Below are positions 487-59,205 of a DNA stretch of 64,000 nucleotides, piece after piece; position 1 is the first letter of the stretch, and every line of letters begins with the position of its first letter. This DNA is from Rhodoferax antarcticus ANT.BR (lineage in GTDB: Bacteria; Pseudomonadota; Gammaproteobacteria; Burkholderiales; Burkholderiaceae_C). A program made the translations under genes and the position numbers. The stretch spans positions 186,001 through 250,000 of the forward strand of contig NZ_MSYM01000011.1 of the NCBI RefSeq assembly GCF_001938565.1. Reading direction: 5' to 3'. A model generated the notes under the pieces. It did not search any database. It saw only the letters and a program-made list of their open reading frames with translations, and had not been told where the DNA came from.

Positions 487-534
487 TAGCTGCTGGCGCT
501 TATTGAATAAGGGCTAGAGGCTGTTTTGGCCTAT
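487..534 (+). repeat. mini-repeat copy 1 (TAGCTG...GAGGC family)
   Basis: Near-consensus copy. TAGCTGCTGGCGCTTATTG is followed directly by AATAAGGGCTAGAGGC and a short T-rich tail. The core is an imperfect palindrome (GCGCTTATT / AATAAGGGC). It lies between the convergent receptor gene and recQ, where a hairpin could serve as a terminator. Confidence 0.85.
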
Positions 535-537
535 AAA

Positions 538-2391
538 TTAGGGGCTGAGCGCGCCCTCAATCACTTCCAGCACCGCATCACCATAGGCTTCGAGCTTGCG
601 CACTCCCAGGCCACTGATGCCTTGCAACTCCAGCCGCGACTGTGGTGCGGTCTGGGCGATGGCCACCAGTGTCGCATCGTGAAAAATCACATAGGCGGGC
701 AGGTTGTGCTCCCGGGCCACCTCGGCGCGCCAAGCTTTCAGCGCGGCAAAACGCTGCTGCTCGGCCGCATCCAGCACGGCAGCCACCTTGGGCGCGGGCA
801 CCTGGCTGGTGCGCCGGGTTTTGCGCGCAGCGGCTTTGGGTTGCGTCACGCGCAGGGTGATGGGCACCGCGCCTTTGAGCACCGCACGCGACACCTCGGT
901 GAGCGCCAGCGTGTTGAAGGCCTGCGCATCCACCGCTACCGCGCCAATCGCCAGTAACTGACGCAGTACGGCGCGCCATTGGGTCTCCGACAAATCGGCA
1001 CCAATGCCAAAAGTGCTCAGGGCCTGGTGCCCGCGCTGGGCGACCTTCTCGGTGACCTTGCCGCGCAGGATGTCGACGATGTGACCGGCGCCAAAACCGA
1101 AACCGCTCATCTGCTGCACCCGGTAAACGGTGGACAGCAGCTTGCGTGCGGCGTCAGTGGCGTCCCAGACATCCGGGCTTTGCAGACAGTTGTCGCAATT
1201 ACCGCATTCCGTGCTGGCTTCATCAAAGTAGCGCAGCAGGCGCACGCGGCGGCAGTCGGTGGCCTCACTCAGGCCCAAGAGCGCGTCGAGCTTGCCGCGC
1301 AGGCCTTGTTTGAAGGCTTCTTCGGCGGGGCTCTCATCAATCATGCGGCGCTGGTTCACCACGTCTTGCAGGCCGTAACACATCCAGGCGTCGGCTGGCT
1401 CGCCGTCGCGCCCGGCGCGGCCGGTTTCCTGGTAATAGCCTTCAATGTTTTTAGGCATATCCAAATGCGCCACAAAGCGCACGTCGGGCTTGTCGATACC
1501 CATGCCAAAGGCGATGGTCGCCACCATCACAATGCCTTCGCTGCGCAAAAATTGGTCCTGGTTGGCCTGGCGCACTTTCACGTCTAACCCGGCGTGGTAG
1601 GGCAGGGCGGCAATGCCGTTGTCGCACAGCAGGTCGGCGGTGTCTTCGACCTTTTTGCGCGACTGGCAATACACCACACCGGCATCGCCCATGTGCTCGT
1701 CCTGGATGAAGCGCAGCAGTTGCTGGGTGGCTTCACGCTTTTCAACAATCGTGTAGCGGATGTTGGGCCGGTCGAAACTGCTGATGAACAGGCGCGCTTC
1801 CTGCAGTTGCAGGCGCTCAATAATGTCGGCGCGCGTCAGCGCGTCGGCGGTGGCGGTTAGCGCTACCCGCGGCACGCTGGGGTAGCGCTCATGCAGCAAG
1901 GTCAGCGCGCGGTATTCAGGCCGGAAATCATGGCCCCACTGGCTAACGCAATGCACCTCGTCAATGGCAAACAGGCTTAACAGCCCGCGTTCGAGTAACG
2001 AGTCCAACTGCGCCAGAAAACGAGGTGTGTTCACACGCTCTGGTGCGGCGTAAAGCAGGGTGATGTCGCCGGCCAGCAGGCGCCGCTCGATCTGGCTGGC
2101 TTGCTCGAAAGACTGCGTGGAGTTTAAAAACTCGGCCTTGACACCGGCCTCATGCAGCGCGCCGACCTGGTCGTGCATCAGCGCGATCAGCGGCGAGATC
2201 ACCAGGGTAATGCCCTGACCTGCCTGCTGGCGGGCAATGGCGGGAATCTGGTAACACAGGCTTTTGCCGCCGCCGGTGGGCATCAGTACCAGCGCATCGC
2301 CGCCAGCGGTCACGTGCTCGATGATGTCTTGTTGCGGGCCGCGAAAGGCTTGGTAGCCAAAGACTTCGGCAAGGATGGTGTGAATGGACAC
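538..2391 (-). CDS. recQ: ATP-dependent DNA helicase RecQ
   Basis: 3'-5' superfamily 2 DNA helicase for recombination and fork repair. The 617-residue length is normal. Visible motifs are FRGPQQ (Q motif), [15 protein letters not shown] (Walker A), [16 protein letters not shown] (DEVH box and aromatic loop), and [12 protein letters not shown] with [10 protein letters not shown] in the second RecA lobe. A zinc module follows ([10 protein letters not shown], then CGNCDNC), then a winged-helix RQC region and a C-terminal HRDC domain ([19 protein letters not shown]). The start is GTG; the 5' flank carries a mini-repeat. It stands alone, convergent with the receptor gene and divergent from the antiporter gene. 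Confidence 0.96.
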
Positions 2392-2410
2392 AATTATGTT
2401 GCTACTTAAA

Positions 2411-2455
2411 TAGTAGCTTTAACCGCACTGTTTATAAGGGTTAGAAGGTCAAATG
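2411..2455 (+). repeat. mini-repeat copy 2
   Basis: Diverged copy: TAGCTTTAACCGCACTG, then TTTATAAGGGTTAGAAGG. It sits in the divergent promoter region between recQ and the antiporter gene, about 20 bp upstream of the recQ GTG. Confidence 0.6.
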
Positions 2456-3691: not shown

Positions 3692-3703
3692 CAAAATTCC
3701 GCC

Positions 3704-5052: not shown

Positions 5053-5069
5053 GAGCTTGTGTGTTTTAT

Positions 5070-5105
5070 GCCTCTAGCCCTTGTCTTGTAAGGGCTGGTA
5101 GCTAT
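5070..5105 (-). repeat. mini-repeat copy 3
   Basis: GCCTCTAGCCCTTG, then TCTTGTAAGGGCTGGTAGCTA. This is the reverse orientation of the family consensus. It lies between the terminator and the icmF stop codon. Confidence 0.8.
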
Positions 5106-5125
5106 CGTAAAGACAGCAAATCGCC

Positions 5126-8100
5126 TTACATATTGCGCCGGTACTGCCCACCCACTTCGAAGAGTGCATTGGTGATCTGGCCCAGTGAGCACACGCGCAC
5201 CGCATCCATCAGCACCTCAAACACGTTCTGGTTGTCGATCACCGCTTGTTGCAGGCGTTTGATCTGCGCCGGGCTTTCGGCTGCGTGGCGTGTGTGGAAG
5301 TCGGCCAGCCGTGCCAGTTGCGACTGTTTTTCTTCGTCGGTTGAGCGGGCCAGTTCCAGCTTGTCGTTGACCGGGTCGCCATGCGGGTTGCGGAAGGTGT
5401 TGACGCCGATGATGGGCAGCTCGCCGGTGTGTTTGAGCATTTCGTAATGCATGGATTCATCCTGAATCTTGCCGCGCTGGTAGCCGGTTTCCATGGCGCC
5501 GAGCACACCGCCGCGCTCGGTGATGCGCTCAAACTCCAGCAGCACAGCTTCTTCCAGCAGCTCGGTCAATTCTTCGATGATGAACGCGCCCTGTGACGGG
5601 TTCTCGTTCTTGGCCAGGCCCCATTCACGGTTGATGATGAGCTGGATCGCCATGGCGCGGCGCACACTGTCTTCGGTGGGCGTAGTGATGGCTTCGTCAA
5701 AGGCATTGGTGTGCAGGCTGTTGCAGTTGTCGTAAATGGCAATCAGCGCCTGCAGCGTGGTGCGGATGTCGTTGAACTGGATTTCCTGTGCGTGCAGGCT
5801 GCGCCCGCTGGTCTGGATGTGGTATTTCAGCTTCTGGCTGCGCTCGTTGGCACCATACTTTTCTTTCATGGCCACGGCCCAGATGCGCCGTGCGACTCGG
5901 CCCATCACGGTGTACTCGGGGTCCATGCCGTTGCTGAAGAAGAAGCTCAGGTTGGGCGCAAAGTCGTCAATGTGCATGCCGCGCGCCAGGTAGGCTTCGA
6001 CAAAGGTGAAGCCGTTGGATAGCGTGAAGGCCAGTTGGCTGATCGGGTTGGCCCCGGCTTCGGCAATGTGGTAGCCACTGATCGACACGCTGTAGAAGTT
6101 GCGCACGTTGTGGTGCACAAAGTAGCTGGCAATGTCGCCCATCACCTTCAGGCTGAATTCGGTGCTGAAGATGCAGGTGTTTTGGCCTTGGTCTTCTTTC
6201 AGAATGTCGGCCTGCACGGTGCCACGCACATTGGCCAGCACCCATTCCTTGATCTTGGCAGCCTCGGTGTCGGTGGGGTCACGGCCGTTGTCGGTGTTAA
6301 ATTTTTCCAGGTTCTGGTCGATTGCGGCATTCATGAACATCGCCAGGATGCTCGGCGCCGGCCCGTTGATGGTCATGCTCACGCTGGTGTTGGGGCTGCA
6401 CAGATCGAAACCACCGTAAAGCACTTTCAGGTCGTCAATGGTGGCAATAGAGACCCCGGAGTTGCCGACTTTGCCGTAGATGTCCGGACGCGGATCGGGG
6501 TCGTTGCCGTAGAGCGTGACCGAGTCAAATGCGGTGGACAGCCGCTTGGCGGCCATGCCCGAGCTAAGCAGCTTGAAGCGCTTGTTGGTGCGAAACGGGT
6601 CGCCTTCACCGGCGAACATGCGGGTGGGGTCTTCGCCTTCGCGCTTGAAGGCAAAGGTGCCGGCGGTGTAGGGGTAGCTGCCAGGCACGTTGTCGAGCAT
6701 CAGCCATTTCAGGATTTCGCCATGGTCCTCGTATTGGGGCAAGGCCACTTTGCGAATCACCGTGCCGCTCAAGGACTTGGTGGTGAGCGCGGTGCGGATT
6801 TCCTTGTCGCGGATCTTCACCACGTACACATCGCCTGCGTAGGCCTTTTGCATTTCGGGCCACTGGGCTACCAGTTTCCTGGCTGCCGGGTCCTGGTTTT
6901 GTTCGCGCCGCTGGGCCAGTTCGGTGGCGGCCTGCGCCGCATCACCCTGGCTGGGCTTGTCTTGCGTCAGCAGGGTGGCGGCACCGTGCAGTTGCTGAAT
7001 CTCGCGGGCCAGGCGCGCCTGGGCCAGCGCGTTGCGTTTGTAGCCACGCACCGTGTCGCTGATCTCGGCCAGGTAGCGGGTGCGTGCGGCAGGCACCACC
7101 GGCATCTGGTTGGAGCTAAAGCGCACCGCCACACAGGGCAGAACACTTGTCTTGACCGGCATGCCCAGCGCCTGCAGACGTGCCAGCAAGGCTTGGTACA
7201 GCGCGGTGACACCGTCGTCATTGAAACGTGCGGCCATGGTGCCAAACACCGGCATCTCGTCGACGGGCGTGGTCCAGGCTTCTTTGTTGCGCTGCACTTG
7301 TTTGGATACATCGCGCAGCGCATCGCTGGCGCCCTTGCGGTCAAACTTGTTGATGGCGACAAACTCGGCAAAGTCGAGCATGTCGATTTTTTCCAGCTGG
7401 CTGGCCGCGCCAAATTCAGGCGTCATCACATACAGCGGCACATCCACATGCGGCACGATGGCCGCGTCGCCCTGGCCGATGCCGGACGTTTCCACAATGA
7501 TCAGATCGAAACCCGCCACCTTGCAGGCGGCAATCACATGGGGCAGCGCGGCGCTGATCTCAGAGCCGAAATCGCGCGTGGCCAGACTGCGCATAAAAAC
7601 CCGCGCGCCGGTATCGCCGTCGGGCCGCCCCAAGGCGATTCCAGCCCCCTCGGGGGGCAGCGAATCACACGCAGTGGGGAGCGTGGGGGCATGTTTTGTC
7701 CACGGCGTGATCGCGTTCATGCGGATACGGTCGCCCAAGAGTGCGCCACCGCTCTTGCGCCGACTCGGGTCGATGCTGATCACCGCCACCCGCAGCACGT
7801 CGCCTTGATCGAGCCTAAGGCGGCGGACCAGCTCGTCGGTGAGCGACGATTTGCCCGCACCTCCGGTGCCTGTGATTCCCAAAACCGGTATCTTTTTAGT
7901 AGCTGCTAGCGCTTGTATATCAAGGGTTAGCGCCTTAAAAGACTCTGAAAAATCACCTTTGTCGACGCCGGAGGCTTGTTCATTCTCCAGCGCAGTGATG
8001 AGCTGCGCCAGTGCGCGCCAGTTCTGGTCGGTGTGGCCCTGAATCGCCTCGATGCTGGTGGGGGCAAAGCCGCTGATGTCTGTGTCGCAGTGCATCACCA

Positions 8101-8536
8101 TCTCGCCAATCATGCCAGCCAGACCCATGCGCTGACCGTCTTCTGGGCTGAAGATGTGCTGCACGCCGTAGGCATGCAACTCGGCGATTTCACTGGGTAC
8201 GATCACGCCGCCGCCGCCGCCAAAGACCTTGATATGTTCGCCGCCACGTGCGCGTAACAGGTCCACCATGTATTTGAAATACTCCACATGCCCGCCCTGA
8301 TAAGAGCTGATGGCAATGCCCTGCACATCTTCCTGCAAGGCGGCGGTGACGACCTCGTCGACGCTGCGGTTGTGGCCCAGGTGGATCACCTCCGTGCCCA
8401 TGCTTTGCAGGATGCGGCGCATGATGTTGATGGCAGCATCGTGCCCGTCAAACAGGCTGGCCGCGGTGACAAAACGCACCTTATGGGTGGGGCGGTAGCT
8501 GGCGAGGGCCTTCAAATCGGTGGACAGGTCGGTCAT
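5126..8536 (-). CDS. icmF: fused isobutyryl-CoA mutase IcmF (B12 domain, G-protein chaperone, mutase)
   Basis: Adenosylcobalamin enzyme interconverting isobutyryl-CoA and n-butyryl-CoA. With the ATG at 8536 the protein has 1136 residues, slightly longer than usual for IcmF. Domain order: B12-binding domain (FDGHDAAIN near 29-36, [18 protein letters not shown] near 104-113); MeaB-like GTPase (GTGGAGKSS near 223-231, [17 protein letters not shown]); substrate-binding mutase domain from about 560 ([25 protein letters not shown] in pieces, [21 protein letters not shown]). Two segments look like repeat DNA translated in frame: residues ~199-214 just before the GTPase domain and ~277-309 inside it (see repeats at 7897 and 7612). 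The frame stays open through both. Upstream in-frame ATGs up to 8698 run into non-coding sequence and were rejected. Confidence 0.93.
7612..7708. repeat. GC-rich palindromic repeat inserted in frame in icmF
   Basis: About 97 bp containing CCCCCTCGGGGGG and flanking GCGTGGGGGC / GCCGTCGGGCCGCCC. From memory, sequences of this kind are common between genes in Comamonadaceae. Here it lies inside the GTPase domain of icmF, encoding roughly [12 protein letters not shown] then [17 protein letters not shown] between LGDRIRMN and ARVFMRS, two motifs I recall as nearly adjacent in relatives. Confidence 0.6.
7897..7940 (+). repeat. mini-repeat copy 4, inside icmF
   Basis: TAGTAGCTGCTAGCGCTTG, then TATATCAAGGGTTAGCGCC. 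In icmF it encodes [14 protein letters not shown], in the linker between the B12 domain and the GTPase P-loop. It runs opposite to the gene, unlike the other intragenic copies. Confidence 0.8.
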
Positions 8537-16345: not shown

Positions 16346-16435
16346 ATTTGGCGGCAAATTTTGCGCGAATGTCATCGGCCTTAGTAAGCGGTGACGGTAA
16401 TAACAACAGACAAAGCGATCATTTGCATAAAAAAT

Positions 16436-16480
16436 GCCTGTAGCCCTTGTTCAGACTGCATATCGCGCTACAGTTTTGAT
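16436..16480 (-). repeat. mini-repeat copy 5
   Basis: GCCTGTAGCCCTTGTTCAG, then ACTGCATATCGCGCTACAG. A diverged reverse-orientation copy between the convergent HNH and amidohydrolase genes. It overlaps the last codons of the amidohydrolase. Confidence 0.65.
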
Positions 16481-17679
16481 AAGGGTTGCGTCAACCACTT
16501 TTGCGCCAGCCGCACCCAGTAAGTGGCCCCCAGCGGCAGCAGCGCGTCGTTGAAGTCGTAACTGGCGTTGTGCAGCATGCACGGCCCGGCGCCGTGGCCC
16601 ATTTCGCGGTGGTCGCCGTCACCGTTGGCGATGAACGCATAGCACCCCGGCTTTTGCAGCAGCATGAAAGAAAAGTCTTCCGCGCCCATGGTCGGTTCCT
16701 GCACCTGGACCTTGTCGGCGCCCACAATGTCGGCCATCACCTGGCGGCAAAACTCGGCCTCAGCGGCGCTGTTGATGGTGGGCGGGTAATTGCGCCGGAA
16801 TTCAAACTCGGCACTCAGGCCAAACGCCGCGCAGAGCTGTGTCGTCATGTCCTGCATGCGCTGCTCAATGGCATCCAGTACCTCCAGCGAAAAGGTGCGC
16901 ACCGTGCCTTGCAGCTCCACTGTATTGGGGATGACGTTGGTAGCTTCGCCCGCGTGGATCATGGTGACCGAGATCACCCCAGCGTCGATCGGTTTGATAT
17001 TGCGGCTGATGATGCTCTGAAACCCCTGCACCAGTTGACACGCCACTGGCACCGGGTCCAGCGCGTTATGCGGCATGGCGGCGTGGCCGCCTTTGCCTTG
17101 AATGATGATCTTGAATTCGTTGCTCGACGCCATCACCGGCCCGGCGCTGGCGGCAAAAAAACCGACATCGGAGCCCGGCCAGTTGTGCAGGCCAAACACG
17201 GCTTGCATGGGAAACTGTTCAAACAGGCCGTCTTTGATCATCTCGCGCGCGCCGCCGCCGCCTTCTTCGGCGGGCTGGAAGATCAGGTAAACCGTACCGT
17301 CAAAGTCGCGATTTTTTGCCAGGTACTGCGCAGCCGCCAGCAGCATGGCGGTGTGACCGTCGTGGCCGCAGGCGTGCATCTTGCCGGGCTCAAGGCTGGC
17401 GTGGGAAAAGGTGTTGGCCTCCTGCATGGGCAGCGCGTCCATGTCGGCGCGCAGGCCCAAAGCGCGGCCATTGGCACCGCCGTCACGCCCATGAACGATG
17501 CCGACCACGCCGGTGGTGCCGAGCCCGCGATGGATCGAGATGCCCCATTCGGTGAGCTTTTGCGCCACCACCTCAGCGGTGCGGATCTCTTTGAAGCACA
17601 GCTCCGGGTGGGCGTGAATGTCGCGGCGCAGGGTGGCGATTTCTGGGCTGTTCTGGGCGATGGCGTCGATGAGTTTCAT
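16468..17679 (-). CDS. M20 family amidohydrolase (hippurate hydrolase-like)
   Basis: Zinc-dependent cleavage of N-acyl amino acids. The ATG at 17679 gives 403 residues starting MKLIDAIAQNSPEIATLRRD. Typical sites are RRDIHAHPELCFKE, ALGLRADMDALPMQE, HACGHDGHTAMLLAAA (metal ligands), LIFQPAEEGGGGAREMI (catalytic Glu), the dimerisation domain from about 185, and GAEDFSFMLLQKPGCY near the end. Substrate is unassigned; hippurate or indole-acetyl amino acids are usual for this branch. The gene starts at the edge of the repeat island upstream. Confidence 0.9.
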   Translation of the reverse strand: MKLIDAIAQNSPEIATLRRDIHAHPELCFKEIRTAEVVAQKLTEWGISIHRGLGTTGVVGIVHGRDGGANGRALGLRADMDALPMQEANTFSHASLEPGKMHACGHDGHTAMLLAAAQYLAKNRDFDGTVYLIFQPAEEGGGGAREMIKDGLFEQFPMQAVFGLHNWPGSDVGFFAASAGPVMASSNEFKIIIQGKGGHAAMPHNALDPVPVACQLVQGFQSIISRNIKPIDAGVISVTMIHAGEATNVIPNTVELQGTVRTFSLEVLDAIEQRMQDMTTQLCAAFGLSAEFEFRRNYPPTINSAAEAEFCRQVMADIVGADKVQVQEPTMGAEDFSFMLLQKPGCYAFIANGDGDHREMGHGAGPCMLHNASYDFNDALLPLGATYWVRLAQKWLTQPLSKL

Positions 17680-21554: not shown

Positions 21555-21597
21555 CGATCGGACTCCGGGCTGGAGGTGAAAGCTATATACAAAATCA

Positions 21598-21637
21598 GGC
21601 TCTATCCCTTGAAGCTAAAGCGGTGATAGCTATCTAA
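21598..21637 (-). repeat. mini-repeat copy 6
   Basis: GGCTCTATCCCTTGAAG, then CTAAAGCGGTGATAGCTATC. Diverged reverse-orientation copy upstream of argO and downstream of the OB-fold gene. Confidence 0.6.
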
Positions 21638-21663
21638 AAAAGAGCAATCAGGGCTTGAAAAAT

Positions 21664-22377
21664 TCAAGGCTTGGATAACGTGGCGCTTTCAATCAGCACT
21701 TTGTAGGTATAGCCCATGCCCAGGTCGACGTTGCTGCGTAGCGTGCCAGACACGGTGAGCACGTCGCCAATTTGCGCGCTGGCGCTCGAGGTGGCCAGAA
21801 TGTCGTGGTTTTGGGTGACCGCGCTGCCGCTGCCGTCTTGCAGGTGCAGCCAGTTTTTGCCCATGATGTCGGCGCTGAACTTGACTACCGTGGCGCTCAG
21901 GCGCACCGGTTTGTTATTGAGCTGCCCCGCCTTGGCATACAGATCGGCCACGGTGTAGGCGTTGTTGCCGCTGGCCTTGGCCAGTTTGGCGACCGCCACG
22001 GGTGCGACCTGGGCGACTCCTTCATGCGGGTTGCCTGCCCCGGCGGGCGCACCCACGAGGCTGCCAAAAACGATGCTGGTGAAAGTTTTGCCGAGCGATT
22101 TGCTCTCAAAGTTGTCCATCACCATCTGCGCCTCGACGCTTACGGTGCTGCCTTTAGCCACAGCCGCCTTGTCCACCACCGCCCATTGCTCGCCCTTACC
22201 TGTTTTGATGCGAAGGTAGGTGTAGGGCGCCACGTCACGCACTTGCAGCACCACGCCGGTGATTTTTTCGCCAGCAGTCGGCTTGGCCGATGGCGTGGCG
22301 TGCAGCAAGGGCGCAGCGGCGATCAGGCCGACGCCCAGAAGTTTGTGCAGAGTGAACAGTTTCATAGTCGCTTTCAT
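21664..22377 (-). CDS. exported OB-fold nucleic-acid-binding-like protein
   Basis: 237 residues with a signal peptide (MKLFTLHKLLGVGLIAAAPLL, cleavage near LHATPS) and two OB-like modules. Module 1 has VVLQVRDVAPYTYLRIKTGK and GEQWAVVDKAAVAKGSTVSV; module 2 has NWLHLQDGSGSAVTQNHDIL and IGDVLTVSGTLRSNVDLG. Similar periplasmic proteins (NrfJ/DUF5666-like) are known but their role is unsettled. The start overlaps the pncC stop by 4 bp (ATGA), so it is co-translated. An internal ATG 12 bp downstream is an alternative start. Confidence 0.75.
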   Translation of the reverse strand: MKATMKLFTLHKLLGVGLIAAAPLLHATPSAKPTAGEKITGVVLQVRDVAPYTYLRIKTGKGEQWAVVDKAAVAKGSTVSVEAQMVMDNFESKSLGKTFTSIVFGSLVGAPAGAGNPHEGVAQVAPVAVAKLAKASGNNAYTVADLYAKAGQLNNKPVRLSATVVKFSADIMGKNWLHLQDGSGSAVTQNHDILATSSASAQIGDVLTVSGTLRSNVDLGMGYTYKVLIESATLSKP

Positions 22378-22937
22378 ATCAATGGGTCGATCGGGTGCAA
22401 GGTAGGGTGCAAGGGCTTCGCCTTGTCTTCGGGCAATTCGATCAGGCTCAGCAGCCGCGTCAGCGCATGTTGAACGGTAGCCTGGCGCACGGCGGCGCGG
22501 TCGCCATCAAAGTGCCTGACTTCGCTTGTCACGCCAGCCGGTGTGGCCCAGCCAAACCACACGGTGCCAATCGGTTTTTCCGGGCTGCCACCGCCCGGGC
22601 CAGCCACACCGGTGACCGCTATCGCCACCTGGGCGTGTGAGTGCGCCAGCGCACCGGCGGCCATGGCGCGTGCCACGGGCTCGCTGACCGCGCCAAACTG
22701 GTCAATCAGGCTGGCGTCCACAGCCAGCAACTCGGTTTTGGCGGCGTTGGAGTAGGTGACAAAACCGCGCTCAAACCAGTTGCTCGACCCTGCCAGATCG
22801 GTGCAGGCCGCAGCAATCATGCCGCCAGTGCAGCTCTCAGCGGTGGCCAGCAGCCACTGGCGTTTACATAAGAAATCGGCCACTAGCCCGCATAGCGCTT
22901 GCGTGGATAGCTCTTGATTTAAGAGTGTTTCAGACAT
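22374..22937 (-). CDS. pncC: nicotinamide-nucleotide amidohydrolase PncC (CinA C-terminal family)
   Basis: Deamidates NMN to nicotinate mononucleotide in NAD recycling. 187 residues; contains TAESCTGGMIAAACTDLAGS, FERGFVTYSNAAKTELL, AIAVTGVAGPGGGSPEKP and GTVWFGWA, all hallmarks of the CinA C-terminal domain. It starts 5 bp after pgpA ends, so the pgpA-pncC-OB genes form one unit. The N-terminal MoaB-like CinA domain is absent, as usual for stand-alone PncC. Confidence 0.93.
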   Translation of the reverse strand: MSETLLNQELSTQALCGLVADFLCKRQWLLATAESCTGGMIAAACTDLAGSSNWFERGFVTYSNAAKTELLAVDASLIDQFGAVSEPVARAMAAGALAHSHAQVAIAVTGVAGPGGGSPEKPIGTVWFGWATPAGVTSEVRHFDGDRAAVRQATVQHALTRLLSLIELPEDKAKPLHPTLHPIDPLI

Positions 22938-24549: not shown

Positions 24550-25548
24550 TTAAGCAAAGTGATCAAACGACGTGTAGCTGTTGGCCAGTGGCTGGCCCTG
24601 GCTGTCAATCAGCCGCAGCCCGGGCTCGGCGTTGATCTGGCCGATGCGGGTCACCGGGGTTTGGCTGGCGCGGCTGGCGGCCTGCACCGCCTCACGCAAG
24701 TGCGCTGGGGCGGTGAACAGCAGTTCGTAATCATCGCCGCCAGACAGCGCGTAGCGGCGCCACTTGTCTTCTGATAAATTTATATTAAATTGGCCTCTAA
24801 CCCTTATGGATAAAGCGCGAGTAGCTATTAAAGATGTAGCGACATCAGCATCCACAGTGGCACCCATGGCCGAGCTTTCCAGGATGTGACCTAGGTCGCC
24901 GAGCAGGCCGTCGCTCACATCTAGCGCTGCACTGGCGACGTCGCGCAAAGCCAGCCCCAGGGCGACGCGGGGTGTGGGCTGCTCCAGCCGCAGGCGGGTG
25001 GCGACCAACACGTCATCCGGCAGGACCGTTTTGCCGAGCAAAGCGTCTAGCGCGAGCCGGGCATCACCCAGCGTGCCGCTCACATAGATGTCGTCACCCG
25101 GCTGCGCACCCGAGCGCAGCAGCGCCTGCGAGCGGCCAGCCACGACAGGCACCTCGCCAAACACGGTGATGCAAATATTCAGCGGCCCGCAAGTGGTGTC
25201 GCCGCCGATCAGCTCGCAGCCATGCGCGTCTGCCAGCGCCAACAAGCCTTGTGCAAAGGCCGCCAGCCAGGACTCGTCCACTCTGGGCAAAGACAGCGCC
25301 AGGGTAAAGGCGAGCGGTTGCGCGCCACAGGCCGCCAGATCGCTCAGGTTTACTGCCAAAGATTTGTGACCCAGCCGGCAAGGGTCGGTCTCAGTCAAAA
25401 AATGGCGGCCTGCCACCAGCATGTCGGTTGAGATGGCCATCTGCGTGCCCGGGCGCGGTTGCAGCAGGGCACAGTCGTCACCCACGCCCAGCACCGCACG
25501 GCGCGCCGGGCGTTTGAAGTAGCGGGCGATCAGGTCAAATTCACCCAT
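24550..25548 (-). CDS. thiL: thiamine-monophosphate kinase ThiL
   Basis: Phosphorylates thiamine phosphate to thiamine diphosphate. The start at 25548 gives 332 residues, MGEFDLIARYFKRPA. Motifs: AVLGVGDDCALLQPRPG, ISTDMLVAGRHFL, LAACGAQPLAFTLALSLP, LIGGDTTCGPLNI and ALDVSDGLLGDLGHIL. Residues ~240-255 (SLIATRALSIRVRGQFNINL) coincide with a mini-repeat read in frame, just before the conserved ALSGGDDYELLFT. The gene follows the recombinase-family gene by 4 bp on the same strand. Confidence 0.93.
   Translation of the reverse strand: MGEFDLIARYFKRPARRAVLGVGDDCALLQPRPGTQMAISTDMLVAGRHFLTETDPCRLGHKSLAVNLSDLAACGAQPLAFTLALSLPRVDESWLAAFAQGLLALADAHGCELIGGDTTCGPLNICITVFGEVPVVAGRSQALLRSGAQPGDDIYVSGTLGDARLALDALLGKTVLPDDVLVATRLRLEQPTPRVALGLALRDVASAALDVSDGLLGDLGHILESSAMGATVDADVATSLIATRALSIRVRGQFNINLSEDKWRRYALSGGDDYELLFTAPAHLREAVQAASRASQTPVTRIGQINAEPGLRLIDSQGQPLANSYTSFDHFA
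24792..24832 (-). repeat. mini-repeat copy 7, inside thiL
   Basis: GGCCTCTAACCCTTATGGAT, then AAAGCGCGAGTAGCTATTAA. In thiL it is read in the frame (L)-IA-TRA-LSIRVRG, in the loop region before the conserved GGDDYEL motif. Confidence 0.85.
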
Positions 25549-28066: not shown

Positions 28067-28219
28067 GGCAGTGCAAAGGGCCAACAAGAGGTTCAGACCG
28101 CACCAGCGCCCCTAAAGGCGTGTGTGCAGCGGCGAAAGCGGATTATGAACGCAAGCGCAAAGGAGCTGAAGTGGCCTAGCCAAGTTAGGGTGATGCATAT
28201 GCGTTTAAGCATCAAATAA

Positions 28220-34582: not shown

Positions 34583-34620
34583 GCCCTTACGCAGTAAGCG
34601 CGAGAAGCTCTTAAATTAAG
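34577..34620 (-). repeat. mini-repeat copy 10, supplies stop codons of rquA and priA
   Basis: GCCTGAGCCCTTACGCAG, then TAAGCGCGAGAAGCTC and TTAAATTAAG. The TGA of rquA and the TAA of convergent priA both fall within it. Confidence 0.75.
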
Positions 34621-42852: not shown

Positions 42853-45012
42853 TTACAAACCAGCAATCGCCGCCCGAACCTCACTCACCGAGAGGATTTC
42901 AGACAACACCACCGGCGCCTTGCCAGCCTGGTAAAACACATACACAGGCACGCCGTTGCGCCCGAGTTGTGCCAGCGCAGCGGTGATGGCTGGGTCGCGG
43001 CGCGTCCAGTCAGCGCGCAGCAGGATGGTTTTTTTCGCATCGAAGTCCGCCAGAACGCCTGAGTCCGCCAGGGCGGTCCGCTTGTTGTACTGGCAAGTCA
43101 CGCACCAGGCGGCGGTGAAATCGACAAACACCGGCGAGCCGGCAGCCACCAGTTCGTCCACCTTGCCCGGCGCCCAGGCCTGCCAGCGCGCGCTGCTGGC
43201 GACCCCACCCGCAGGCTCGGAGAATGTAACGATGTTTTTGCCTGTAGCCCATGTCATGCTTGCGAAAGCAGCTATACAAATTGCAGCAATCGGCAACCGA
43301 CTCTTGCCCCGCAGGGTGAATGCCCAGATGACCATCGCCACGCCCACCAGCAGCGCTAGCAGGGCACTGGCACCGTCGATGCCGGTTTGCTGGCCCAGCA
43401 CCCACACCAGCCAGACCACCGTGGCAAACATCGGAAACGCCATGGCGCGGCGGAAGCTGTCCATCCATGCGCCAGGGCGCGGCAGCAGACGCGCCAGCGC
43501 TGGCGACCAACTGGCCGCCAGATACGGCAGCGCCATGCCGACGCCAAGCGTGGCAAAGATCGCCAGCGCCTGCAGAGCGGGCAAACTCAGCGCCAGCCCG
43601 AGCGATGCGCCCATGAACGGCGCGGTGCAGGGCGAGGCAATCACCACCGCCAGAATGCCCGATAAAAAAGCGTTGACCGACGGGTTTTTGGCCTCCAGCG
43701 TGGCCAGACCAGAGGGCACAAACTGGCCAATTTCAAAAAGCCCGGCCAGGTTCAGTCCGATCACCGTGAACAGCACCGCCAACGCGGCCACCACCACCGG
43801 CGACTGCAGCTGAAAGCCCCAGCCCAACTGCTGCCCAGCGCTACGCAAAGCCAGCATTAGTGCACCCAGCGCCAGAAACGACAGCACCACGCCGGCGCTG
43901 TAAGCCAAGCCGCTGACACGGTGGCCGCGGCGGTCATCCGCGTGGCGGGTGAAGCTCACCACTTTGATGGCCAGCACCGGGAACACGCACGGCATCAGGT
44001 TCAGGATCATGCCGCCCAGCAGCGCGCCGGCCAGCGCCAGCCAGAAGCTGGTGGGCAGTGCGCCGCTGGCTGCAGCAGAGCTGACGGTGAAAGTTGATGG
44101 GCCGTCTGACGCTGGCGCTGGCTCACCGGGCGCCGGTGTGGCTGGCCAGCTACCGCTGATTTGGGCGGTGGTGGCAAATCCGCTCAGTTGGCCGTCCACC
44201 TCGCTGGTGATCACCATCGGCAGTTCGGTCGGGCTGGCGCTGCGGTGGATAGCCATGGGCACGCTGGCGGTCCAGGTGGCGCCGTTCCAGGCTTGCGACC
44301 AGGGCGCGCCGGGCTCAATCACTTCCGGGGTTTCCGGGAAAAACTCCAGCGTCTTGCCGTGCAGGGCGGTGGGCAGGCCATTGACCGAGACTTTGAGCTG
44401 TGACCCTTCCAGGGTGATGCTGCTGCTGCCCTTGAGCGCCTGCGGCTGCGCTGCAAAGGCGGCCTGAAACACGTTGCCTTGAAGCGCGGTAGAGCTCTTG
44501 ACCGGCAGGCGCAGCACAAATTCGCCGTCCTGCGGCACACATTCCTCCTTGCACACCAGCCAGCTGGCTTGCAGCTTGACTTCTAGCTCGGGCGTCAGCA
44601 GCGAGGGTTTGAACTCGGGGGTGATGGTCAGCGGCACCGGCAGCAGCACGGTGTCGCCAAAGCCGTAGGTCACCAGGCTGCCGGTGGGCAGCTTGCGCGG
44701 CGTGGGCCAGGCCAGGTCGCCAGCGATCACGCCGGGGGGGAGCTTCCAGGTCAGCTGGGTGGGCTGGCCGGAGTCGCCCGAATTCTTCCAGTAGGTGTGC
44801 CAGTGCGGCTGGTGGGTAAGCTGCAGGCCGACCCAGACCGTTTTGCCGGGGTCGGCACCGTCGGGCGCGTAGGCCATCAGCTCGGCACGCACCTGTTCGG
44901 TGGTGACCAGGTTTGTGATGCTATTTTGGGCGTTAGCCCAGGTGGGTATTGCGCCAATAGCTACAAAAATAAAAGCAATCAGGCGGCTCAGAAAAAGGGG
45001 CAGTAAGCTCAT
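42853..45012 (-). CDS. DsbD/ScsB-like thiol:disulfide reductase
   Basis: Transfers reducing power from the cytoplasm to the periplasm. 719 residues: signal peptide (LIAFIFVAIGAIPTWANA), N-terminal periplasmic domain with the CKEEC cysteines (WLVCKEECVPQDG), membrane core with LNLMPCVFPVLAIKVVSFTR and VIASPCTAPFMGASLGLALS (the redox Cys pair), then a C-terminal thioredoxin domain with FTAAWCVTCQYNKRTAL. Architecture is that of ScsB/DsbD-family proteins. Both the signal peptide and the segment just before the thioredoxin domain (CIAAFASMTWATGKNI) coincide with mini-repeat variants. Confidence 0.9.
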   Translation of the reverse strand: MSLLPLFLSRLIAFIFVAIGAIPTWANAQNSITNLVTTEQVRAELMAYAPDGADPGKTVWVGLQLTHQPHWHTYWKNSGDSGQPTQLTWKLPPGVIAGDLAWPTPRKLPTGSLVTYGFGDTVLLPVPLTITPEFKPSLLTPELEVKLQASWLVCKEECVPQDGEFVLRLPVKSSTALQGNVFQAAFAAQPQALKGSSSITLEGSQLKVSVNGLPTALHGKTLEFFPETPEVIEPGAPWSQAWNGATWTASVPMAIHRSASPTELPMVITSEVDGQLSGFATTAQISGSWPATPAPGEPAPASDGPSTFTVSSAAASGALPTSFWLALAGALLGGMILNLMPCVFPVLAIKVVSFTRHADDRRGHRVSGLAYSAGVVLSFLALGALMLALRSAGQQLGWGFQLQSPVVVAALAVLFTVIGLNLAGLFEIGQFVPSGLATLEAKNPSVNAFLSGILAVVIASPCTAPFMGASLGLALSLPALQALAIFATLGVGMALPYLAASWSPALARLLPRPGAWMDSFRRAMAFPMFATVVWLVWVLGQQTGIDGASALLALLVGVAMVIWAFTLRGKSRLPIAAICIAAFASMTWATGKNIVTFSEPAGGVASSARWQAWAPGKVDELVAAGSPVFVDFTAAWCVTCQYNKRTALADSGVLADFDAKKTILLRADWTRRDPAITAALAQLGRNGVPVYVFYQAGKAPVVLSEILSVSEVRAAIAGL
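43239..43278 (-). repeat. mini-repeat copy 12, inside dsbD
   Basis: On the coding strand TAGCTGCTTTCGCAAGCATG, then ACATGGGCTACAGGC. Read as (I)AAFASMTWATG, within the last membrane helix of the reductase. Confidence 0.65.
44928..44968 (-). repeat. mini-repeat copy 13, encodes the DsbD-like signal peptide
   Basis: On the coding strand TAGCTATTGGCGCAATACCC, then ACCTGGGCTAACGCC. Read as (V)AIGAIPTWANA, the hydrophobic core and cleavage site of the signal peptide. Confidence 0.65.
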
Positions 45013-45510: not shown

Positions 45511-45536
45511 GTCGCTTGGTCGAAGTATATAAGAAA

Positions 45537-45576
45537 TTGGCCTCTAGCCCTTTATTTATAAGCGCTAGCAGCTATG
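45537..45576 (-). repeat. mini-repeat copy 14 (near-consensus)
   Basis: TTGGCCTCTAGCCCTTTATT, then TATAAGCGCTAGCAGCTATG. The best reverse-orientation copy. It lies between phoH and ybeY inside the operon. Confidence 0.9.
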
Positions 45577-45589
45577 AAGTTAGTAGCGT

Positions 45590-46648: not shown

Positions 46649-46649
46649 G

Positions 46650-54589: not shown

Positions 54590-54623
54590 GAGGCGGTGCA
54601 GTTTAGGTTGATGCTACCAAAAG

Positions 54624-54672
54624 TATAGCTGCTGGCGCTTATTTAATAAGGGCTAGAGCCGTATTTGTCATA
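54624..54672 (+). repeat. mini-repeat copy 15 (near-consensus)
   Basis: TATAGCTGCTGGCGCTTATT, then TAATAAGGGCTAGAGCC and a T-rich tail. Lies between the phosphatase start and the GGDEF-EAL stop codon; a second partial AAGGGCTGG occurs at 54683. Confidence 0.9.
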
Positions 54673-54729: not shown

Positions 54730-57144
54730 TCAGGCGGTGCTGGGCGGCAGGCTGGCGATGAGTTCTTCAAACTTGTCTGCGGCCAGGCCTGGCGCGCACA
54801 AAAAACCCTGAAAAGACGCGCAGCCCAGGCTGGCCAGGTAGTCGCGCTGGGCGGTGGTTTCCACGCCTTCGGCCACCACCTTGAGTTTGAGACCACGCGC
54901 CATGCCGACAGTGGCACTGACAATGGCGCGATCACTCTCGTCGTCGGGCAGGCCGGTGACAAATGATCGGTCGATCTTGAGTTTCGAGATCGGGAAACGC
55001 TTCAAATACGCGAGGCTGGAGTAGCCGGTGCCAAAGTCATCAATCGATAGCGCCACACCCAGCTGTGACAAGGCATGCAGGCGGCTCAGGGTCTCGTTGG
55101 CATCCTGGATCAGGATCGATTCGGTGAGCTCCAGCTCCAGCAGCTGCGGCTGCAGCCCCGCAATGTTGATCACCGCGGCCACCGTTTCGACAAAATCCGG
55201 CTGCTGAAACTGCAGCGCCGAAACGTTGATGGACACCGTCACTGGCGTGCCCCGGTTTTGCCACAACGTGGCCTGGCGCACCGCCTCTTCCAGCACCCAG
55301 GTGCCAAGGGTGGTGATGAAGCCGGAGGCTTCGGCCAGCGGAATGAAAAGCCCCGGCGACACCACGCCCAGTTCGTCGTCGGTCCAGCGGAGCAGCGCCT
55401 CGGCACCCTGCAGGCTGCCGTTGGCCAGTGAAATCTGTGGCTGGTAATGCAGCCGGAACAGCCCTTTGTCCATGGCCAGACGCATGGCGTGGTCCATCTT
55501 CAGGTGAGACAACAGGTTCACATTCATCTGCGGCTGGTAAAAGCGAAAGCTATTGCGCCCGCGCGCCTTCACAAGGTACATGGCGGTGTCGGCGCATTTG
55601 ATCAGCGCGTCCAGCGTTTTACCGTCTTCCGGGTACAGCGCCACGCCAATGCTGCAGCCGATGGAAAACTGCATGTCATCAATCTGCAAGGCGTGGCCCA
55701 TGGACGCCAGAATGCGCTGCGCCAGTACCTCGGCACCACGCGCGTCAATGTCTTGCAAAAAGATCACAAATTCGTCACCACCCAGTCGGCACAGGGTGTC
55801 GGTATCGCGCAGGCAACGCATGAGCCGCTGCGCCACTTCCACCAGCACCCGGTCACCAAAGGTGTGGCCCATCGAGTCGTTGATGTTTTTGAAGCGGTCC
55901 AGATCGATAAAAAACACCCCGCACTCGCCAGCGTTGCGCTCGGCCACGCGCAGCGCAAACTCGGCTCGCTGCGACAGCATCAGCCGGTTGGGTAGGCCGG
56001 TCAGCACATCGTTGTAGGCCAGCTGCTCAATGCGTTTCTGCGCCGCGTTCTCTTCGGTCAGGTCGCGAAAGAAGCCGATGCTGTGGGTCACCTGACCAGC
56101 ATCGTCACGCAGCAGCACCCATGACATCTGTACCGCGCAGGCGCTCAGGTCTTGCTGGCGAACCCACAGCTGGCCACGCCAGAAACCCTGCTCCAACAGT
56201 GTGGCGGCCATGGCGGCCATCAGCTCCGGGTCTTGCGGGTCATAAAAAACATCTTGCGCCGGTACGCCGAGCAGCTTGCCTGGCGCGCATTGCATCAGGC
56301 ACTCACACGCAGGGTTGACTGCGACGATCTCAAAATCCGGGTTGGTGATAAAGATCGCTTCCAGGCTGGACTCAAACACCTTGGCCGCCAGCTTGAGCTG
56401 CGACTGCGCCGCCAGGCTTTGCGTGATGTCGCGAAACGATGCCACCCGCCCGGTGGGTTGCCCGCGGCTGTACAGCGGGCGGGTCACACGCTCCAGCACG
56501 CGCCCGCTGGTGAGCACCAGAACATCATAGGTTTCCAGCAAGGGGTTGTCGGCTATCTCCAGCAGCCGCTGCCGGTAGCGCTGCACATCACTGACCTGGC
56601 TGGCCAGGTGGGCATACAGCGCAGCATCGTCGCGCTGGTGCAGCCGTGCCTCTGGCACGGCCCAGAGCTCGCTGAAGTGGCGGTTGTAGTTGCGAATGGC
56701 CCCGGACAGGTCGCTGACCAGGATGCCATCGGCGGTGGATTCCAGCGTCGCGCGCAATTCGGCCAGCAACTGTTCCAACTCGTTTTCAGTGTCGTGCTGT
56801 TGGCGCAGATCGCGCATGCCTACCAGGTACACCGAGCGATCTGTCTCGGGCCAGACCAGGCTAACACGGCGCTCTACCGCTACCGCCATGCCGTCCGCGC
56901 CACGCAGCAGGGTCTCGGAGTGGATGCTCTCGGTCAGGCCAGCGGCCACGTCCTCCCAAAAAAACTGGTCCTCTGGCGTGGCGGTGAGCTCAATGGCAGG
57001 TTTGCCCACCATGGCTTGTCGCTCCAGGCCCAGCAGGTCACAGGCCGCCTGGTTGACCGCCAGAATGCGCAGGTCTACCGGGTCCACCAGCCAGACGGAT
57101 TCCAGCAAGCCTTCAATCAACGGGCGCCAGACGTCGCGTGTCAT
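54730..57144 (-). CDS. c-di-GMP enzyme with PAS, GGDEF and EAL domains
   Basis: 804 residues, no membrane segment. PAS-like domains at ~8-120 (AVNQAACDLLGLERQAMVGK), ~140-250 and ~262-375 (VFESSLEAIFITNPDFEIVA). GGDEF domain ~385-540 with LCRLGGDEFVIFLQDID, intact. EAL domain ~555-800 with GAEALLRWTDDELGVVSPG, ELELTESILI and DDFGTGYSSLAYLKRFPISK, intact. Both activities may exist; balance unknown. It overlaps the HD-GYP gene by 4 bp, forming a two-gene signalling unit. Confidence 0.93.
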   Translation of the reverse strand: MTRDVWRPLIEGLLESVWLVDPVDLRILAVNQAACDLLGLERQAMVGKPAIELTATPEDQFFWEDVAAGLTESIHSETLLRGADGMAVAVERRVSLVWPETDRSVYLVGMRDLRQQHDTENELEQLLAELRATLESTADGILVSDLSGAIRNYNRHFSELWAVPEARLHQRDDAALYAHLASQVSDVQRYRQRLLEIADNPLLETYDVLVLTSGRVLERVTRPLYSRGQPTGRVASFRDITQSLAAQSQLKLAAKVFESSLEAIFITNPDFEIVAVNPACECLMQCAPGKLLGVPAQDVFYDPQDPELMAAMAATLLEQGFWRGQLWVRQQDLSACAVQMSWVLLRDDAGQVTHSIGFFRDLTEENAAQKRIEQLAYNDVLTGLPNRLMLSQRAEFALRVAERNAGECGVFFIDLDRFKNINDSMGHTFGDRVLVEVAQRLMRCLRDTDTLCRLGGDEFVIFLQDIDARGAEVLAQRILASMGHALQIDDMQFSIGCSIGVALYPEDGKTLDALIKCADTAMYLVKARGRNSFRFYQPQMNVNLLSHLKMDHAMRLAMDKGLFRLHYQPQISLANGSLQGAEALLRWTDDELGVVSPGLFIPLAEASGFITTLGTWVLEEAVRQATLWQNRGTPVTVSINVSALQFQQPDFVETVAAVINIAGLQPQLLELELTESILIQDANETLSRLHALSQLGVALSIDDFGTGYSSLAYLKRFPISKLKIDRSFVTGLPDDESDRAIVSATVGMARGLKLKVVAEGVETTAQRDYLASLGCASFQGFLCAPGLAADKFEELIASLPPSTA

Positions 57145-58568
57145 GGTGCACTCTGCGTTGGCGACACATCCACGGCGCGCTCAAAAAAGTAGCACATGCG
57201 CTGACGCGGTGACAAATAGTCCAGCGCTGCGCGGGGCAGGCTAGCGGGTTTGAGGCTGCGTTTGATGCCCAGATCAGGCGCAGTTTCCAGGTCGAGAATC
57301 AGCGCCTCGTGCCTGGGCACCTTGGCATCAAAAACGATCAGTCGCGGTTTCAGTGGCCGCGCCGAATTGACCGACACCACCATCGCATAACGCTGGTCAT
57401 TGAGTTGCACCACCGAGCCCGTTGGATACACGCCCATCATGCGGATGAAGGCCCGCAGCACGATCGGATCAAAACGGCTCTTGAGCTGTGCAAAGATCAG
57501 CGCCAAGGCTTCGTGCGGCGTCACGGCCGCCGCGGGTCGGCTGGGGTTGCACAGGTTTTCATAGCGGTTGACAAGGGCCAGGATTTTCGCCGGTAGCGTG
57601 ATGCTGTCGCCCTTGAGGTGCGCCGGAAAACCGCTGCCGTCCACCATCTCGTGGTGCTGCGCGATGGCCAAAAGGGCACCGGCCGGTAGCCCAATGCTTT
57701 GGCCCAATCGCACGCCTTGGGCCACGTGCTCCTGGTAAACCTTGATCTCATTGGCAGAAAAACTGTCGTCCAGCCAGCGTACCCTGTCGGGGAGCTCCAG
57801 CTTGCCGATGTCATGCAAAAACGCTGCTAGGCCGAGGTCGGTCATGTCGGCAGCGCTTAGGCCCAGTTGCTTGCCCAGCAGCAAACAGATGATGCTGATG
57901 TTCACCGGGTGCATGGCCAGTTTGTCGCCCATGCTGTCTGAGAGCAGGCGGATGGCTGAGTCGTCCTCGCATAGCATCTCGGTGACGAAGCCGGTGACGA
58001 GCGTCAGGCATTGCGTCATCACCGTGTGGGGTTGGCTGTGCACCTGCTCAATGGCTTGCTTGTACTGGCGCACAGTCTGACCAAACCGTCGCTCGCACAC
58101 CGCCAGGTCGCGCTGCTGCGTAGCCAGCCGCTCAGCGCGCGCTCTGCGAAGGTGCTGCTCTTGGGCGGCGCGTTGGGCAGGAGTGTCAGCCTTGTCCGCT
58201 GGGGCAGAAGTCACGTCCGCTGGGGCAGAAGTCACGTCCGCTGGGGCAGAAGTCACGTCCGCTGGGGCAGAAGTCACGTCCGCTGGGGCAGAAGTCGTGC
58301 TGGGTGAGGCTGACGTCGCGTCGGGAGCGGTTGCCGCGGGCGACGGCGCAACAATCGTTGGCGCCACGGGTCGACTCAGGTCACTTTTGCTAGGCACATA
58401 GCGAATTTGCTTGCGCCCAAGGCTGCGAATGATCTCGATTTGCTTGTCGGAAGTGATCTTGAAACTGCCAGTGGGAAACGGATGCGCCAGCCAGCCCAAC
58501 TCAAGCTCGACGTACATGCCGGGCTGCAAGCGCTCGACATCAATGATTTCCGACCGAATTTCTTCCAT
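57141..58568 (-). CDS. HD-GYP phosphodiesterase with N-terminal DUF3391
   Basis: 475 residues. DUF3391 at ~1-70 (VERLQPGMYVELELGWLAHP). A Thr/Ser/Ala/Pro/Asp/Val linker (~85-135) contains five TSAPADV-type heptapeptides from a 21-bp DNA repeat. HD-GYP core ~165-400: AAFLHDIGKLELPDRVRW, HVAQGVRLG, AIAQHHEMVDGSGFPAHLKG (Phe in place of Tyr in the GYP motif). Cleaves c-di-GMP in this family. Promoter upstream at 58569-58600; first gene of the pair. Confidence 0.92.
   Translation of the reverse strand: MEEIRSEIIDVERLQPGMYVELELGWLAHPFPTGSFKITSDKQIEIIRSLGRKQIRYVPSKSDLSRPVAPTIVAPSPAATAPDATSASPSTTSAPADVTSAPADVTSAPADVTSAPADVTSAPADKADTPAQRAAQEQHLRRARAERLATQQRDLAVCERRFGQTVRQYKQAIEQVHSQPHTVMTQCLTLVTGFVTEMLCEDDSAIRLLSDSMGDKLAMHPVNISIICLLLGKQLGLSAADMTDLGLAAFLHDIGKLELPDRVRWLDDSFSANEIKVYQEHVAQGVRLGQSIGLPAGALLAIAQHHEMVDGSGFPAHLKGDSITLPAKILALVNRYENLCNPSRPAAAVTPHEALALIFAQLKSRFDPIVLRAFIRMMGVYPTGSVVQLNDQRYAMVVSVNSARPLKPRLIVFDAKVPRHEALILDLETAPDLGIKRSLKPASLPRAALDYLSPRQRMCYFFERAVDVSPTQSAP
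58194..58298. repeat. 21-bp tandem repeat in the HD-GYP gene, five units
   Basis: Unit GTCCGCTGGGGCAGAAG then TCAC; four identical copies and a final one ending GTCGT. In frame, so copy-number change only lengthens the linker between DUF3391 and HD-GYP. Confidence 0.93.
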
Positions 58569-58599
58569 GAACCGTTATGTAGGCGCAGACAGTGCGCTG

Positions 58600-59181
58600 T
58601 TAGCGTGGGATTTCAATATTAACGCGACGCTCGCCAGCGGGCGGGTTGGGCAAGCCCTGCAACGCGGCATCCAGCATAGCACTCAGGATGGCATCGCTGT
58701 CTGACCAGGGGCCTTCGTGCACCGCGCGCGACTCGAACACCACCGCTTGGCTGGCACGCTCACGCACGATCAGCCCCACCTCGCGCCAGTAACTGGTGCG
58801 CGCGTCCAGCCTCGGGAAAAGCATGCCGTTGCCCACTGAAATACCGCCGTTGCCAAACATCCAGCCCAGGTTCCAGCCTAGGGCAGGGCGGTCCAGCACG
58901 AGTTGCTGTGCGCGTTGGGTGGCTGACACCTGCACGCTGTAGCGGGCGGCTTGGTCGTCGCGGGTCAAACCGACTTGGGCCAAAGCCTGCTCGGCCATGT
59001 GTTCCAGGCGGTCTTGCGCCGGGTTGGCTTGCTGTGACGGCAACCGCTCAAAGCGATAGCGACTACCCGCAGGCACGCTGGCTGGCGCAAAGCTGTTGAC
59101 CTGGCTGTCCACCAGCCTCATACCACTGCAGCCAGTAAGCAGGGTTACTACGAAAAGTAGAGCTGTTAGCGCTTTGTACAT
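58600..59181 (-). CDS. DUF4136-like outer-membrane lipoprotein
   Basis: 193 residues. Lipoprotein signal ALTALLFVVTLLTGCSGM with lipobox LTGC, giving a lipidated Cys. The mature protein has GSRYRFERLPSQQANPAQDR, YSVQVSATQRAQQLVLDRPA, and a Gly-rich middle (GWNLGWMFGNGGISVGNGM), similar to DUF4136 proteins. Function unknown. The first codons (MYKALTAL) lie in a mini-repeat. Confidence 0.75.
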   Translation of the reverse strand: MYKALTALLFVVTLLTGCSGMRLVDSQVNSFAPASVPAGSRYRFERLPSQQANPAQDRLEHMAEQALAQVGLTRDDQAARYSVQVSATQRAQQLVLDRPALGWNLGWMFGNGGISVGNGMLFPRLDARTSYWREVGLIVRERASQAVVFESRAVHEGPWSDSDAILSAMLDAALQGLPNPPAGERRVNIEIPR

Positions 59182-59205
59182 AAGGGCTAGAGGCTTTTTT
59201 TATAT
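59158..59205 (+). repeat. mini-repeat copy 16, spans the lipoprotein start
   Basis: TAGAGCTGTTAGCGCTTTG, then TACATAAGGGCTAGAGGC and a T-run. It contains the lipoprotein start codon and first ~8 codons on the minus strand; the T-run lies next to the ttcA stop. Confidence 0.85.

Follow-up and report, generated by a model that had tools for sequence, protein, structure and literature searches.

What could account for a dense family of short palindromic repeats in the chromosome of Rhodoferax antarcticus ANT.BR? We analyzed a 64,000-nucleotide stretch of this genome (hereafter the window; G000:C2:186001-250000, where G000 is the bacterium's own 4.0-Mb genome), for which a preliminary description had reported a ~40-bp hairpin mini-repeat in continuing spread. 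The copies very probably form a family of recognition sites with a coevolving reader. On balance, and judging from sequence comparison, we take them to be double-stranded DNA recognition sites common to many relatives, most likely uptake signals of natural transformation. The likeness to uptake signals lies in their freedom of strand, their presence in genes, their dialects, their wear after loss and their apparent avoidance of atypical DNA.

The repeat family itself is real. The core CTAGCSCTTATT is matched 21 times in the window at ≤2 mismatches (3.92 expected; reached by 0 of 100 shuffles). A matrix trained on 176 sites from 800 kb external to the window, which were found with a matrix first seeded with window copies so that the test is not fully independent, scores all 17 places first reported (16 copies and a 'doubtful' one at 32664) at 25.8 to 69.3; the top score over 20 Markov resamples of the window was 4.6. 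The original list of about 16 copies holds in every member, the doubtful one included, and had missed a strong copy at 22889 (39.2). An additional weak copy lies at 63154 (17.9).

The ~40-bp hairpin first described covers only part of the unit. The 17 window copies line up gap-free about an invariant GGG, and the unit spans ~56 bp, roughly -39 to +16 relative to GGG, with traces to ~70 bp; in a matrix refined on 216 hits, some of them second-strand hits of single pseudo-palindromic sites, weaker conservation reaches -41 and +28. A hand sum of the matrix table over -39..+16 gives ~50 bits of information. The overall form is roughly TTGCTACT, an A/T stretch, ATAGCTnCTnGCGCTT, AnAAGGGCTAGAGGCCnATTT and a second A/T stretch, and its blocks are GCT at -37..-35, a mostly A/T stretch at -32..-25, TAGCT, CTnGCGC, AnAAGGGCTAGAGGC, and A/T stretches at 13..16 and 22..27. 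The inner arms, GCGCTT and AAGGGC, are mirror images, which is why a hairpin was seen; the motif is oriented nonetheless, as the preliminary description had also recognized. The sites in the window are listed here with strand, setting and matrix score (DsbD, PriA and phospholipase A1 were identified from Pfam and NCBIfam; ORF, open reading frame).

472..527, +, site, intergenic, directly past the stop of ORF 9..470; score 66.9
2399..2454, +, site, intergenic, divergent genes either side; score 45.7
5064..5119, -, site, intergenic, stop 7 nt before; score 54.5
7885..7940, +, site, antisense within ORF 5126..8536(-); score 47.4
16430..16485, -, divergent site that overlaps the ORF 16468..17679(-) stop; score 25.8
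21592..21647, -, site, intergenic, stop 17 nt before; score 55.0
22873..22928, -, site absent from the original list, in the 5' extension of ORF 22374..22820(-); score 39.2
24787..24842, -, site, sense within ORF 24550..25548(-); score 69.3
28214..28269, -, site at the phospholipase A1 stop codon (PF02253); score 68.0
29329..29384, -, site that in translation encodes signal-peptide-like LLIAITALPTWATA, the phospholipase A1 N-terminus; score 52.4
32658..32713, -, the copy first called doubtful, within ORF 31136..33292(-); score 35.3
34570..34625, -, site spanning the priA stop codon; score 40.5
36303..36358, -, site within priA, at an equivalent place in other loci; score 40.3
43234..43289, -, site encoding a hydrophobic stretch near the DsbD end (last membrane helix by inspection), with orthologues; score 43.0
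44923..44978, -, site encoding the DsbD N-terminal, signal-peptide-like VAIGAIPTWANA, with orthologues; score 49.7
45534..45589, -, site, intergenic, stop 1 nt before; retained in L067, L049 and L032, worn in L031; score 63.3
54611..54666, +, site, intergenic; score 65.5
59145..59200, +, site classed as intergenic, where ORF 58600..59121/59181(-) starts; score 64.0
63138..63193, -, weak, doubtful candidate in ORF 62538..63335(-); score 17.9

Is the window typical of its genome? Contig C4 (1,059,282 bases) carries 255 non-overlapping sites, 118 on the + and 137 on the - strand, and its reversed sequence none. The motif is enriched elsewhere in the genome, and extrapolation to about 965 sites per 4.0 Mb bears out the earlier estimate of the order of a thousand copies. 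A strict pattern gave 504 matches across the whole genome, and a control pattern 0. An uptake sequence would likewise be a single oriented motif present in hundreds to thousands of copies, many more than chance would give.

Placement relative to genes was scored with our own crude gene caller on 202 sites in 864 kb. Coding sequence holds 105 of them (52 sense, 53 antisense) and intergenic sequence 97, so that sites occur on both strands and both in and between genes, as uptake sequences do; by the same caller the window copies at 7924, 22889, 24803, 29345, 32674, 36319, 43250 and 44939 are in reading frames. Within genes, 40 of the 52 sense sites are read in one frame (I-A-x-S-A-Y-x-I-R-A-R-G-Q-F) and 41 of the 53 antisense sites in another single frame (N-x-P-L-A-L-M-D-K-A-x-x-A-I-K); frame preference in genes has been reported for known uptake sequences (PMC2346458). 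Between genes, 59 of the 97 sites have an adjacent gene's stop ≤25 bases away on either side. Together with the hairpin-like core and T-rich end, this would suit an RNA element or transcription terminator. However, the near-equal numbers of sense and antisense sites in genes leave strand untied to transcription, and no Rfam match was found in the window, in keeping with the initial remark that no named family was known. With the dialects described below, we consider this explanation extremely improbable.

A second explanation is a mobile repeat, similar to a repetitive extragenic palindromic (REP) element or a miniature inverted-repeat transposable element (MITE) and moved by a REP-associated tyrosine transposase (RAYT) or another transposase. 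Copy number, the imperfect palindrome and the 37 of 97 intergenic copies that start ≤25 bases past a same-strand stop are consistent with it, but half of the copies are in genes, the window copies show no indels and the same codons are used across genera. At least one site at the threshold used was present in 29 of the 80 DsbD loci fetched, and at least one of three sites (two in DsbD, one in PriA) recurs at identical codons in Rhodoferax, Polaromonas, Hylemonella, Curvibacter and Acidovorax records, the Acidovorax record (L109) having only the DsbD N-terminal site. The in-gene PriA site has 12 matching loci including the window. Where the dialect of the locus is clear, PriA reads TRA with AAGGGCT (window, L032), GA with GGGGGCT (L044, L069) and TSA with AAGCGCT (L037).

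Orthologous loci bear on both movement and wear. In the closest relative, L067, a site is found by position at each of the 5 window places covered, and 1 extra site is missing from the window. In L031, all 4 alignable orthologous sites are substituted, not excised, in flanks of 0.81-0.87 identity; they score 15.5, 1.6, -22.9 and -23.1, versus 7 to 51 in L032, L049, L067 and the window, and are still in place (alignment gaps 0 to 3, insertions 0 to 12 bases). The second DsbD site is also weak in L032 (7.1) and L049 (14.6). Some of the substitutions in worn sites are synonymous (GCT to GCG, ATA to ATC, GTAGCACTG to GTCGCCCTC), and neither a clean empty site nor a target duplication was observed at the four aligned sites of L031. 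On these alignments, the wear in L031 is decay and not excision. The genome that contains L031 (G105) has 28-37 pattern matches, and is thus poor in sites rather than free of them. Turnover exists as well, since site L049:3410, matched in L032 and L067, was not found in the window, which shows no clean empty site for it; L049:15736 is not alignable in the window or L067. The preliminary description had held that its repeat should differ in presence and absence between orthologous loci of close relatives. Given that there is some turnover, this is borne out in part: L049:3410 and copy numbers from 0 to ~500 between genomes agree with it, whereas the worn sites of L031, with no clean empty site, do not.

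The presence/absence turnover would suit a mobile repeat, and RAYT-family genes (PF01797) are indeed common, being found in 79 of the 89 genomes of the genus. They occur, however, in genomes with and without sites, and G097 (97% complete) has 46-50 sites and no PF01797 match. RAYT presence is independent of sites, and RAYT was rejected as their driver. Separately, we observed that most Rhodoferax genomes encode a ~240-aa PF01797 protein irrespective of sites. Wear without excision likewise speaks against mobility, and we regard a mobile repeat as a very improbable explanation. The claim of a mini-repeat in continuing spread is not supported: coding sequence holds about half of the copies, with no preference of strand, and copies recur at the same codons in other genera.

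How widely is the motif shared? With a dialect-tolerant pattern, and taking ≥20 matches as site-rich, 40 of the 89 genus genomes have ≥20 matches, 3 have 10 to 19 and 46 have <10. In the family, a hand count gave ≥20 matches in at least 77 of 397 genomes and 28 of 126 genera. The scan of this genome and other Comamonadaceae that had initially been proposed thus finds the motif in relatives, and several site-rich genera also contain species with none. Judged from the first listed places per genome, the motif takes the form GCGCTT..AAGGGC in the R. antarcticus genome, GCGCTT..AAGCGC in G010 and G023, GCCCTT..AAGGGC in G040 and G042, GAGCTT..AAGCTC in G366 (few sites), and GCGCWT..ACGGGSGC in G041, G301, G466 and G421, the right arm in G041 being ..ACGGGGGC. 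Such genome-coherent dialects among related species are expected of uptake sequences. In the GCGCWT..ACGGGSGC group the inner Watson-Crick pairs of the supposed hairpin are gone or only G.T, which counts against an RNA element by weakening the hairpin without excluding it. A second in-gene site, near ribD (L264, L256, L241 and others), seems to change between CGCTT..ACGCTGCAG and CCCTT..GGGCTACAG with dialect.

Sites could instead bind a chromosome-organizing (nucleoid or segregation) protein, perhaps a dimer, with a specificity that varies between lineages, some of which have lost the protein. The long, pseudo-palindromic motif with spaced A/T stretches, the use of both strands, the intergenic preference and the recurring places would all fit such a protein. 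But ~50 bits far exceeds what is needed to find ~1000 sites, shifting ~1000 sites without drive would presumably be hard, and patchy loss within genera would be odd for a core function. We therefore view a chromosome-organizing protein as unlikely, while taking it seriously.

Site density also varies along the chromosome. In 5-kb windows of C4 it rises with GC content (rho 0.38, p 1e-8), though the motif is AT-rich, from 0.18 sites per window in the lowest GC tenth to 1.58 in the top quarter. The emptiest stretch, 379-443 kb (L129-L133), is of low GC and holds magnesium chelatase and protochlorophyllide reductase genes (a photosynthesis cluster) with an adjoining complex I operon; the photosynthesis cluster may be foreign. 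A strict pattern gave 1 match in IMG/VR versus 15 in C4, the number of phages of this family in IMG/VR not being established. That single match is at L321:2552-2587, on a contig of 42.7 kb. Scarcity in foreign DNA, if real, would have more than one possible cause: newly acquired DNA would also be free of binding sites for a chromosome protein, and another process of gene exchange (a gene transfer agent that packages DNA with a sequence bias, for instance, or a recombination hot spot) would account for drive, dialects and foreign-DNA scarcity no less well than uptake. The hot spots known for recombination are short, which counts against that version, and we consider another exchange process quite improbable as the force behind the motif.

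If the copies are uptake signals, what might read them? A prepilin scan of 14 genomes pointed to the nrdR-ribD cluster; in the majority of the loci examined, minor pilins are encoded between glyA-nrdR and ribD, and they differ among species. We sorted 68 nrdR loci, excluding L271, L284 and L297 (contig ends <600 bases) and counting neither genomes without an nrdR match nor those with an unfetched locus. By classes assigned by eye once the counts were known, several loci being partial, 23 of the 30 site-rich loci (≥20) have the cluster, 22 of classes 1-3 and one (G068) of class 4, and 34 of the 38 site-poor loci have it, 6 of classes 1-3, 27 of classes 4-7 and 1 unclear. Classes 1-3 consist of fimT, pilV, pilW, pilX, pilY1 and pilE in varying order, in some loci partially. 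Across L241-L320 we noted about seven kinds of minor-pilin sets at nrdR-ribD, some with 427-696-aa pilV-like fusions and no PilY1 match.

G040 and G004 have a common dialect and clusters 68-93% identical. G068 has an NrdR 94% identical to that of G004, yet its pilin set is only 27-40% identical where alignable (G105 and G068 are apparently one genome, and likewise G106 and G004). The idea that G105 (L031) is simply without minor pilins was dropped, as it has a different set. Site labels change 5 times on a PilY1 tree (41 genomes; shuffled mean 14.0), 7 times on a PilW tree (45 genomes) and 7 times on an NrdR tree (38 genomes; shuffled mean 12.8). The last pilin of the R. antarcticus cluster matches Pfam ComP_DUS at 81 bits, and among solved structures PilE (4noa) best covers its globular part. 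For the uptake signal sequence (USS), a minor pilin has been proposed as receptor (PMC12616744). The minor-pilin cluster with its ComP-family pilin is our candidate receptor, a lead whose role we guess.

We propose that competent cells would bind site-bearing DNA and import it preferentially, by way of a minor-pilin tip complex encoded from nrdR to ribD (fimT-pilV-pilW-pilX-pilY1-comP/pilE). Transformation would copy good sites back into the genome, driving the motif even within genes. Were the pilin cluster exchanged, specificity would change or end, and sites would then shift dialect or decay. In its boldest form, to which we give slightly less than an even chance, this would be a third, independent uptake-signal system over at least 28 genera around Comamonadaceae, with a ~56-70-bp signal that prevails over protein sequence at fixed codons (a single PriA residue following dialect), and with specificity set by swappable minor-pilin cassettes at one locus, a swap starting decay or dialect change. 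Two other Comamonadaceae genera are reported to transform selectively: Acidovorax temperans gave transformants only with its own species' DNA, and uptake by Verminephrobacter eiseniae depended on the pilus and fell no more than ~ten-fold with salmon DNA in large excess (PMC4212676). In the sections of that paper on this selectivity, no uptake signal is identified.

Several observations weigh against uptake and its proposed receptor. ComEC is found in 87 of the 89 genus genomes and ComEA in 83 of 89 (a separate TIGR00426 search was weak and matched mainly several-hundred-residue open frames); being near universal, they do not track sites, so site loss is not loss of all competence genes, and core competence genes were rejected as the tracking factor. 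The pilin link, besides its by-eye classes, has exceptions in the 6 site-poor loci with classes 1-3 and in 7 site-rich loci without a cluster at nrdR-ribD. On a matched set of 23 genomes the PilY1 and NrdR trees tie at 4 label changes, so that the link cannot yet be told apart from phylogeny. ComP_DUS does not discriminate either, since it matches 18 of 18 tested pilins from site-rich genomes and 15 of 15 from the other genomes (worn G068 plus 14 site-poor ones), the pilins tested being 18 of 19 site-rich and 15 of 27 others among those extracted. PriA reads TKA in L067, and 6 of the 12 PriA loci have no clear dialect in the stretch covered. The complex I operon in the empty low-GC stretch is hardly foreign, so low GC is an imperfect proxy for foreign DNA. 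Even spacing of sites was rejected, spacing on C4 being no more even than random (coefficient of variation 0.98), with 42 pairs <1 kb apart versus 54.2 ± 5.8. Known uptake signals are far shorter than this motif, and the species-limited transformation of Acidovorax could instead reflect poor homology.

That cells selectively take up DNA of their own kind is well established for Neisseriaceae and Pasteurellaceae (PMC4212676, PMC7811141). If the Rhodoferax sites are uptake signals, they would add another lineage, one with numerous dialects, numerous independent losses and a swapping candidate receptor locus, in which the origin, change, death and reading of such signals would be directly testable. 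They would also offer an explanation of the reported restriction of Acidovorax transformation to DNA of the same species, and an example of a DNA signal shaping the protein sequence of core genes such as priA and dsbD.

Three other repeats were noted in the window. A tandem array with a 35-bp GC-rich unit (~fourteen overlapping register copies) lies at 18159-18789, inside conflicting long ORFs; an array of a 21-bp repeat lies at 58173-58340 within ORF 57141..58568(-); and a CCGCTG-type repeat in priA, at 36352-36453, adjoins the in-gene site.

How does the motif compare with known systems? No explanation of it was found in the open-access literature searched, though it has been glimpsed in print before, with no function assigned. 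Among 'potential novel motifs' reported in 2017 are GCTTAT(N)5AAGCG (Acidovorax ebreus TPSY, 114 copies) and ATAGCT(N)22CAAAAG (Polaromonas naphthalenivorans CJ2, 125 copies), near gene ends (PMC5217627). By inspection, the first, and ATAGCT of the second, fit the Rhodoferax motif in letters and spacing, whereas CAAAAG departs from the R. antarcticus dialect. In the passages that treat them, the two are not joined and are given no function, they are 94% and 81% intergenic as against about half in Rhodoferax, and Rhodoferax ferrireducens T118 has the most motif pairs among the genomes treated (PMC5217627). REP/RAYT elements are likewise imperfect palindromes with hundreds of copies, many close to stops, but the Rhodoferax sites differ in lying in genes, in their fixed length, in being worn in place and in having no tie to a RAYT gene.

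The USS, AAGTGCGGT, is not contained in the motif consensus, nor is the DNA uptake sequence (DUS) as commonly written, which places the motif outside both known families. Compared with the USS of Pasteurellaceae (Haemophilus influenzae), the likeness, drawn from letters and counts, extends to >1000 copies, a specific core with AT-rich tracts (which in the USS aid uptake; PMC7811141) and preferred reading frames (PMC2346458); the sequence is unrelated, and the USS core is 9 bp versus ~56 bp, pseudo-palindromic, in Rhodoferax. The DUS of Neisseriaceae, too, is unrelated in sequence and short, at ~10 bp (PMC7811141). Rhodoferax likewise encodes a pilin assigned to the Pfam ComP_DUS family, although its role as a receptor is a guess and site-poor genomes also encode such a pilin. 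Like the DUS, whose dialects act as barriers to exchange (PMC3630211), the Rhodoferax motif comes in genome-coherent dialects in related species.

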